A stretch of 64,000 nucleotides of DNA from Natronococcus sp. A-GB1 (GTDB lineage: Archaea > Halobacteriota > Halobacteria > Halobacteriales > Natrialbaceae): positions 62,001 through 126,000 of the forward strand of contig NZ_JARUKW010000005.1 in NCBI RefSeq assembly GCF_029688845.1, given 5' to 3'. A program made the position numbers and the translations under genes. Of this stretch, positions 14,478 through 57,965 are shown piece after piece. Each line of letters begins with the position of its first letter. Position 1 is the stretch's first letter. The notes beneath the pieces are model-generated. The model was given only the letters and a program-made list of their open reading frames with translations. It was not told the DNA's origin and did no database searches.

Positions 14478-14537
14478 AAACCGGAGTATCAGTAGATAGC
14501 AGCACGAATTAGTTCTACGAAACAGTTTGTGAAATCT

Positions 14538-14985
14538 GCGTTCCGTACAGTCGGACGACATATCATGTCGGGCCATCCACTCCATCTGCGGTGGCGCGCG
14601 CTGTCGGTGAGGCGCGACCGAAGGGAGCGCCTCGAAAGAGCGAACGGGGAACGGAGTGACCCGTGAGCAGACCGGCCGAACGTCAGTGAGGTCGGTCGAC
14701 GATGCTGCGCGAGGGATGAGTAAGGGAGCGACGCGACCGAACGAATCGGCTGGGGAGGGCGTGGCGATCCCCTGTGTTCGTGCGAGCAGCGTCTGCTATC
14801 GTTGCAACTACCGCGAAAGCCCCTGGCCGGCTCGAGGGCTGCGGCTCGCTGCGCGCCTCCCTCGCTCCGCTCGGTCGGTGCTTGCGTCACCTCGCTCCCC
14901 GAGCCGGCCAGCCCCTTTCAGTCCCGCCCAGCGGTGGTTGGTCGGCACTGTAGACACAACGCCGGACGTTCCATACGCTTGCGTA
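14538..14985 (+). repeat. structured non-coding repeat, copy A (long form)
   Basis: Longest of three related intergenic elements (others at 49528-49825 and 57622-57925). Shared blocks include gtggcgcgcgctgtcg, cgaacgtcagtgagg, gcgagggatgag, ggcgatcccctgtg and cccctttcagtccc, and the end is a CCGCC/GGTGG hairpin. Hairpins at 14609-14633, 14640-14668, 14670-14697 and 14715-14747 each contain tandem G.A mismatches flanked by short Watson-Crick steps. Copy A has two extra hairpins in its first half and an inserted 89-bp palindromic module at 14823-14911. Open frames through it differ between copies, so I do not call a protein. It may be a structured RNA or a palindromic mobile element. Confidence 0.75.
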
Positions 14986-15043
14986 AGTAGCGATTCAGCC
15001 GACTCGAGTTCACAACTGAGCGAAGAAGCCGCAGCACCAGCTA

Positions 15044-49527: not shown

Positions 49528-49825
49528 GACGCGTTCCGCACAGGTGAACGACGTATCAGCTCGGTCGGACCATCCCTCCGACAGTGGCGCGCGCTGTCGA
49601 CCGACCGAACGTCAGTGAGGACGTCGACGACACTGTGCGAGGGATGAGCGAACGACCGAAGGGAGTGAGCGAGTCGGCTGGGGAGGGCGTGGCGATCCCC
49701 TGTGTTCGTGCCAGCAGGACTGCTATCGTCGTCACTACCTCGAAAGCCCCTGGCCCCTTTCAGTCCCACCCGGCAGTGGTTGGTTGAGGCTGCAGATACA
49801 ATGCCGGACGGTCCATACGCACGTT
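49528..49825 (+). repeat. structured non-coding repeat, copy B (short form)
   Basis: 298 bp, same order of blocks as copies A and C. A hairpin with loop GTCA and a GA/GA step is at 49596-49628; the 33-base hairpin at 49643-49675 has steps GAT/GTC, GA/GA, GC/GC, GA/GA, AC/GT, GA/GA, CC/GG around loop GAA. GAAAGCCCC and CCCCTTTC follow, then a CCAC/GTGG hairpin. It fills the 508-bp gap between the GYD and metG genes. It contains no convincing gene. Confidence 0.75.
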
Positions 49826-49894
49826 CTTTGTAACGGCTCCCTCCAAACCGCCCCTCCGGAACGCCTCCGACTCGAGCAAATACCGTGAGAACGA

Positions 49895-57452: not shown

Positions 57453-57621
57453 GGCTAATTATATCTAATTACGCCTGGTCGGATAAGGGGCCGACAACCA
57501 GCAGCACCTGTCGCTTCTCCGGAGTGAGGAAAACGATCGTTTCCGACTGGTTCGTTACTAGTAGCTGGTGGTGCGATTTTACCGTTCGATTCGTTTGTGC
57601 GTCCGAAGCGGTCGGTTCGCC

Positions 57622-57925
57622 ATGTAGAGAGTGCGAATGGAAGGTCCAGCCTCGAGTCTGCAACCCCGACTATCCACCGCTGGGTGGGACTGAAAGGGGC
57701 CAGGGGCTTTCGGGCTGATGCTGACGAGTAGCAGTCCTGCTCGCACGAGCACAGGGAATCGCCACGTCCTCCCCACCCGATTCGCTCGGTCGCGTCGCTC
57801 CCTTGCTCATCCCTCGCACAGTGTCGTCGCCCGTCCTCACTGACGTTCGGACGGCCGACAGCGCGCGCCACTGCAGAAGGGATGATCAGACCGAGCTGAT
57901 ACGTCGTTCACCCGTACTAAACACG
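57622..57925 (-). repeat. structured non-coding repeat, copy C (inverted)
   Basis: 304 bp, reading on the minus strand. A hairpin with loop GTCA and stem GTCGGCCGTCC/GGACGGGCGAC (one G.G mismatch) lies at 57826-57859. The 33-base hairpin at 57779-57811 has steps GAT/ATC, GA/GA, GC/GC, AA/GA, GG/CC, GA/GA, GC/GC around loop GAC. A CCACC/GGTGG hairpin at 57674-57687 ends it. It fills the 513-bp gap between the small hydrophobic gene and the DUF2103 gene. Confidence 0.75.
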
Positions 57926-57965
57926 AGTTTCACGCAATGTACGGAGTGCAAAACTTGTATGACTG

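Follow-up and report, generated by a model that had tools for sequence, protein, structure and literature searches.

A dispersed family of non-coding elements in Halobacteria with a core that folds on one strand and lies in exchangeable modules in Natronococcus

The window analyzed here, a 64,000-nt stretch of the Natronococcus sp. A-GB1 genome, contains three copies of a non-coding element. Our best-supported statement is that these copies belong to a family that is found throughout the class and whose members maintain a single-strand fold. The structure is strand-specific, the copies are dispersed through intergenic DNA in many genera of Halobacteria, a single-copy orthologue is conserved in one genus, and in Natronococcus the element is swapped for other contents at fixed slots. 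We favor, with moderate confidence, the reading that this is a pan-haloarchaeal dispersed non-coding family in which selection maintains single-strand folding of the core, with RNA as the likeliest form, and that it is a structured RNA spread as a non-autonomous repeat. The core would be transcribed, and all copies would bind the same partner, either another RNA or a protein with RNA-binding activity (L7Ae, for example), via hairpins P3 and P2 and the tail described below, and the element would spread as a passive, non-autonomous unit. In Natronococcus, the core would be carried in a module (module A) exchanged by recombination at short shared arms, and module A would be one of several slot fillers beside modules B, C and D and accessory genes. 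The one-strand structure and the place of the element among several interchangeable slot fillers are two points that the original prediction for this DNA had not foreseen.

Copies in the window and structure of the core

Exactly three good copies of the core were found in the window (Table 1). A covariance model (R1) matched them with E-values of 2e-23, 3e-23 and 2e-18 (89–111 bits), which are rough values from a short calibration; the fourth-best match in the window had an E-value of 0.04. The six blocks that had been proposed as shared are present in the same order in all three copies, with copy 3 inverted on the minus strand. The elements lie where they had been placed, within limits drawn slightly too wide for the exchangeable modules, whose approximate limits are those in Table 1. 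The claim that length varies only in hairpin tips was nearly right; copy 1 also carries an additional hairpin block that separates P1 from P2, its 3' module contains a long hairpin (approximately 14824–14911), and other copies have extra hairpins in P3. In the whole A-GB1 genome (4.5 Mb), 55 matching pieces were found, corresponding to about 20 copies. All full-length copies follow one layout, which accommodates additional hairpin blocks at three sites: the P2 base, the interior of P3 and the 3' module. The module in Natronococcus is 280–590 bp long, has the core inside it and is set in intergenic slots with short arms.

Table 1. Parts of the three copies in the 64,000-nt window (G002, G003 and G005 are compared genomes; L034 is another locus)
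Feature	Position	Strand	Remark
Copy 1 left arm of slot, GTGAAATCTGCGTTCCGTACAG	14529..14550	+	Arm common to other copies and to orthologous slots with other contents
Copy 1 exchangeable module A, long form	14551..14977	+	Orthologous slot: module B in G003, module C in G002
Copy 1 structured core P1-P2-P3-tail	14593..14764	+	R1 matches 14658-14764; P1 5' arm from sequence
Copy 1 P1	14595-14600 with 14706-14711	+	
Copy 1 P3	14715-14747	+	
Copy 1 extra hairpin block between P1 and P2, long form	14602..14669	+	Also in L034; missing from most copies
Copy 1 second module M2, GACTGAAAGGGGC..hairpin..GGGGCTTTC	14814..14929	-	67 M2 instances, either orientation relative to core
Copy 1 right arm	14978..14996	+	
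Copy 2 module A, short form	49544..49819	+	No element at G002 orthologous site; module A in G003 and G005
Copy 2 structured core	49586..49692	+	R1, 109.8 bits
Copy 2 M2 without long hairpin	49741..49771	-	Sequence
Copy 2 right arm	49820..49837	+	
Copy 3 left arm, GTGAAACTCGTGTTTAGTACGG	57912..57933	-	
Copy 3 module A, short form	57635..57911	-	G003 orthologous slot: B-like hairpin with SnoaL-like and cupin genes
Copy 3 structured core	57762..57869	-	R1, 110.5 bits
Copy 3 M2 without long hairpin	57683..57712	+	Sequence
Copy 3 right arm	57612..57634	-	

The conserved core of approximately 108–150 nt comprises a helix (P1), two hairpins (P2, which is variable, and P3, whose tandem G.A mismatches are invariant) and a conserved purine-rich tail, CGGCUGGGGAGGnnGUGG, 3' of P3. 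P1 has the form CGYGYG/GYGCG, closes P2 and shows paired changes such as CGCGT/ACGCG and CGCAC/GTGCG. The sequence of P2 has turned over almost completely while complementarity was kept, and a stem score of at least 7 was reached in 82% of copies versus 6% of shuffles. Its apex often reads stem-GA-N6 to 8-YGA-stem, an arrangement that resembles a kink loop. P3 follows the scheme GAU-[GA]-GC-[GA]-NN-[GA]-NN-loop-NN-[GA]-NN-[GA]-GC-[GA]-AUC, in which tandem sheared G.A mismatches alternate with Watson-Crick dinucleotides. The outer tandem G.A was invariant in 43 of 43 sequences, and the NN pairs covaried; at one position in the same 43 sequences, C-G occurred 28 times, G-C 8 times, U-A 6 times and A-U once.

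A set of 142 distinct cores was collected from DNA-similarity matches and by scanning 84,980 species genomes with a search pattern, which gave at least 118 stretches; the 80 that were listed all came from Halobacteria. In loci from L093 onward, the GCGAGGGATGAG and AATCGGCTGGGGAGG columns were partly set by the search pattern, leaving the P1 5' arms, P2 and inner P3 free, and the loci from the own-genome, similarity and covariance-model searches were not pattern-selected. In a MAFFT alignment (A1), 93.2% of cells were paired, and double-change cells numbered 142 versus 41 in shuffles and 9–38 in slid controls. In a model-fitted alignment of 113 copies (A2), 94.3% of cells were paired, with 450 double changes versus 121 in shuffles, and changes on both sides were seen in 23 of 25 pairs. 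The helices are thus backed by both-side changes above the shuffled and slid controls. The original prediction had looked to a covariance-model search for further copies with paired changes, and many were found.

The core folds on one strand

The mismatches within the stems were counted after the stems had been chosen by Watson-Crick pairs only. P1 contained 95 G.U versus 2 A.C mismatches and P2 contained 39 versus 16; A.G and C.T mismatches numbered 41 and 7. Because G.U far exceeds A.C, the plus strand is the folding strand. A double-stranded palindrome, in which both strands would be equally important, does not fit these counts well. Of the two natures first proposed, structured RNA or palindromic mobile DNA, the structured character held and the simple DNA palindrome did not, since only one strand folds. 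Strand mutational bias could account for part of the G.U excess; double changes are nevertheless frequent.

RNA is the natural reading of a single-strand fold, and single-stranded DNA also fits, because G.T and tandem G.A pairs form there too. REP/REPIN hairpins, IS200/IS605 ends and integron attC sites are folded sites recognized by a recombinase or transposase. The main alternative is that the core is likewise a folded single-stranded DNA site for such an enzyme, with the fold selected for mobility and not as RNA; we regard this as a real but lesser possibility, and the evidence bearing on it is given in the next three sections.

Spread across Halobacteria and a single-copy orthologue

Among 194 Halobacteria genomes that were at least 90% complete, the covariance model found the core in 115, representing 41 of 65 genera. 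The copy number per genome was often at least 20, and some genera have one copy; no more than 20 candidates were scored in any genome, a cap that many genomes reached. Natronococcus copies match along the full module and those of more distant Halobacteria along the core only.

In one genus (g43), a single orthologous copy was present in six species between cbiG and cbiF (names read from the translated proteins) and antisense to both. Its core and M2 show higher conservation than the spacer around them, and its P3 has been rebuilt with paired changes, e.g., GAU/AUC to GAC/GUC. This conservation points to a function beyond mobility and argues against a site selected for mobility only; gene conversion is another possible cause. 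A riboswitch for cobalamin genes was rejected in view of the antisense position and of the other neighbors seen in other genera.

Cores were also observed near a DUF373-like gene in four genera (L093, L125, L139 and L147, from Halosimplex, Halogranum, an uncultured member of the Halobacteriales and Halobium), which is above chance expectation and possibly an ancient orthologous position.

Intergenic dispersal and search for a mobility partner

Among 116 cores in 8-kb loci, 107 were intergenic according to gene calls made with a home-made composition score. All nine close core pairs were inverted, and more convergent pairs occurred among the model matches. In Natrinema, conservation breaks off abruptly on both sides, approximately 8 nt ahead of P1 and approximately 30 nt past the core. 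The sequence 3' of the core is different in Halosimplex and others. The multi-copy spread and the inversion of close pairs are also compatible with an element that moves as DNA, and the single-stranded DNA site is further favored by dispersal in any orientation, by the sharp ends in Natrinema, by presence/absence polymorphism and by the lack of a promoter at a fixed distance. It is opposed by the search for an enzyme. The Y1 transposase (PF01797) was absent from G042 and G061 (both single-contig assemblies), G130, G101, G210 and G029, in each of which at least 20 copies were scored; G004 and G005 lacked it as well. A RAYT/Y1 partner was rejected, its presence being uncorrelated with that of core copies. 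No recurrent partner protein or transposase was found beside the cores, and an all-against-all comparison of the nearby ORFs yielded housekeeping paralogues only. A phage or plasmid element was likewise rejected; no phage record matched, and three haloarchaeal plasmid records did.

Convergent core doublets were observed at L094, L113, L118, L154, L193 and L207, and in Natrinema a shared inner CCACGATAGCAG makes them a long palindrome.

Exchange of contents at Natronococcus slots

About 20 slots were compared in three species; the closest relative compared (G003) is approximately 95% identical, and orthologous regions of G003 and/or G002 were retrieved for 15 copies beyond those in the window. 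Sixteen slots were interpretable against G003. Eight keep module A there (copy 2, L038, L039, L040, L043, L044, L049 and L050), seven have other contents and one (L046) is empty. The seven replacements are module B (copy 1 and L035), a B-like hairpin with genes (copy 3), module D with a SelO gene (L033), an alpha/beta-hydrolase gene (L034), module C (L045) and a nucleotidyltransferase gene (L047). The clearest swap is L045, whose flanks are near-identical up to ...CGGTACGTACAG and from CTTACCCGCGG on; between these flanks, one species has module A (approximately 310 bp) and the other has module C (128 bp).

In six of the seven swapped slots, the left junction and a CGnTACGTACAG-like arm are no more than a few bases apart, with the arm resembling the motif only loosely in two of these slots; the left junction of L034 is located further out. 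The right-arm motif GTTCCATTCGCACTCTCTACGTAACG adjoins module A, module B, small genes or nothing, and a reversed control gave no match. The fold sits inside the exchanged module, away from its junctions, which is a further point against a folded recombination site. Ordinary homologous recombination between the arms is a possible mechanism. A bolder proposal is that fixed intergenic slots with short recurring arms let small cassettes (structured RNA-like elements, hairpin repeats and accessory genes) be exchanged by a dedicated, undescribed recombination system acting on folded single strands, with the three-helix core as a part of the machinery or as its commonest cargo; we consider this rather unlikely.

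An ordinary MITE, non-autonomous, with imperfect inverted ends (CGTTACGTA..) and a transposase acting in trans, would make the core a hitch-hiking structure. This is improbable. Natronococcus modules are indeed bounded by imperfect inverted arms, CGTTnCGTACAGGTG / CGTTACGTAGAGAGTG, and an orthologous site, that of copy 2 in G002, is empty, with breakpoints near window positions 49533/49853. However, these arms were found in Natronococcus only, whereas the core is class-wide, and identical arms flank other modules, genes or nothing. Different contents in one orthologous slot are not predicted by plain transposition, and no target duplication was visible at the empty G002 site, the one such site examined. 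Furthermore, no transposase is linked to the element, and covariation at 23 of 25 pairs does not suit a passenger structure. No autonomous transposon copy was seen in the loci examined.

Several further repeats and slot contents were noted. M2 is a second widespread haloarchaeal hairpin family (GGTGGGACTGAAAGGGGC..hairpin..GGGGCTTTC), with 67 instances in the examined loci, which can point the same way as the core or the opposite way (e.g., L124:7790-8000, L255 at about 1600-1760, and the copy 1 instance in the window); its stems show a mild strand asymmetry (G.U 21 versus A.C 9; G.G 23 versus C.C 5). Module B is a different hairpin repeat in the same kind of slot, AACCTCTTTTAnCGGGGGCATCGGCTGGCGTC..GACGCCAGCCTCAACCCCCGGCAAAAC.. 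(L275, L292, L296, L300, L303, L309 and L326). Module C, another filler of about 130 bp, GCGGAGGCGGTATCACTGCGGTAGCG..AAAAAGGTACGTGTG, was seen at L312, L276, L281 and the right flank of L046, where it directly adjoins module A. Accessory genes in slots (L318, L315, L329 and L283) encode SelO-like, alpha/beta-hydrolase, plastocyanin-like, SnoaL and cupin proteins. Repeat D (..GATAGCTGCCAAGAGAGGTCTGCTGAATA..) precedes several slot genes and can also recur, inverted, beyond the gene. Arm-only palindromes, CGTTACGTTCGCACTCTCTACGTAACG, without content (L291:1500, L302:1500, L305:1500 and L061:1443) are possibly empty slots or remnants of internal deletion.

Neighboring genes, coding potential and known families

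A cis-regulatory UTR element of the neighboring genes (terminator, attenuator or riboswitch) was considered as well. In its favor, the distance from the core to the end of a predicted gene is often less than 100 bp, and each of the three window copies reads in sense with the gene that it closely follows. The 107 intergenic cores showed no orientation bias relative to their upstream and downstream neighbors (sense-sense 38, anti-anti 30, divergent 21 and convergent 18) and no linked gene family, so that placement is intergenic without UTR bias. Together with the antisense position of the g43 orthologue relative to cbiG and cbiF, these counts make a UTR element very unlikely. No AT-rich peak, TATA-like box or T-run was found at a fixed distance from the cores. 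The missing fixed promoter and terminator and the lack of a co-transcription preference with neighbors also weigh against the transcription that the RNA reading supposes.

Remnants of a protein gene or of a known insertion sequence, which the original prediction had named as the finding that would overturn it, have nothing in their favor and can be practically dismissed, given the lack of a shared frame, the variable hairpin lengths, the lack of a repeated neighboring transposase and the fact that no longer homologue with a conserved open frame was seen. The predicted inconsistency of frames was borne out; P2 and P3 lengths differ between copies by non-multiples of three, and these changes break every frame, on which ground coding sequence was rejected.

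No match to Rfam 15 reached the gathering score. The sub-threshold matches to CRISPR-DR10 (E-value 0.76) and sR16 (E-value 2) were at chance level and were rejected. Searches of the open-access literature by sequence and keyword returned no description of the family, in agreement with the proposal of an undescribed, dispersed haloarchaeal family that is non-coding and structured. Twenty-two conserved haloarchaeal intergenic ncRNAs without function have been reported (PMC7002113). Like the structured ncRNA families of Rfam, the core has covarying helices, conserved unpaired segments and single-strand specificity; it differs from them in its high and variable copy number, as well as in the absence of a gathering-score match. 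The family adds a well-supported structured member to an archaeal class with few described RNA families, and its abundance should make its function testable by ordinary RNA-seq and deletion experiments.

Comparison with mobile elements and cassettes

REP/REPIN sequences are intergenic imperfect palindromes that occur singly or as inverted doublets with RAYT transposases. The present family is likewise intergenic with inverted doublets (the nine close pairs above), but it has no obligatory Y1/RAYT partner, and its core has long conserved unpaired segments and sequence-variable stems. Integron attC sites are recognized as folded single strands. The slots resemble archaeal integrons with gene cassettes in having variable cargo at defined sites; they differ in being single-cargo slots across the chromosome, with the fold inside one type of cargo.

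Close parallels are the SMRs, MITEs and PATEs of Haloquadratum walsbyi, which are also short, non-coding, multi-copy and dispersed without a transposase (PMC3119063). That paper describes PATEs as having near-terminal palindromes related to IS605 and calls the mode of SMR movement unknown; the text consulted contains no strand-specific covarying three-helix core, such as the one found here across 41 genera. The paper also reports 'SwitchRepeats', in which either of two distinct repeats occupies the same position, and 'deletion-coupled insertions' between Haloquadratum strains, whose mechanism it calls undescribed, with no sequence conservation readable as targeting. Slot exchange resembles both phenomena, with the difference from the deletion-coupled insertions that short shared arms mark the junctions in Natronococcus. 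The slot comparison thus supplies concrete junctions and short arms for an old haloarchaeal puzzle, the replacement of unrelated sequences by one another at identical positions, and because the short arms recur at junctions, the exchange mechanism becomes testable. If true, a dedicated slot recombination system would explain the deletion-coupled insertions. PMC3119063 gives SMR-A as approximately 110 bp with terminal inverted repeats and no target duplication, a size similar to that of the core (approximately 108 nt).
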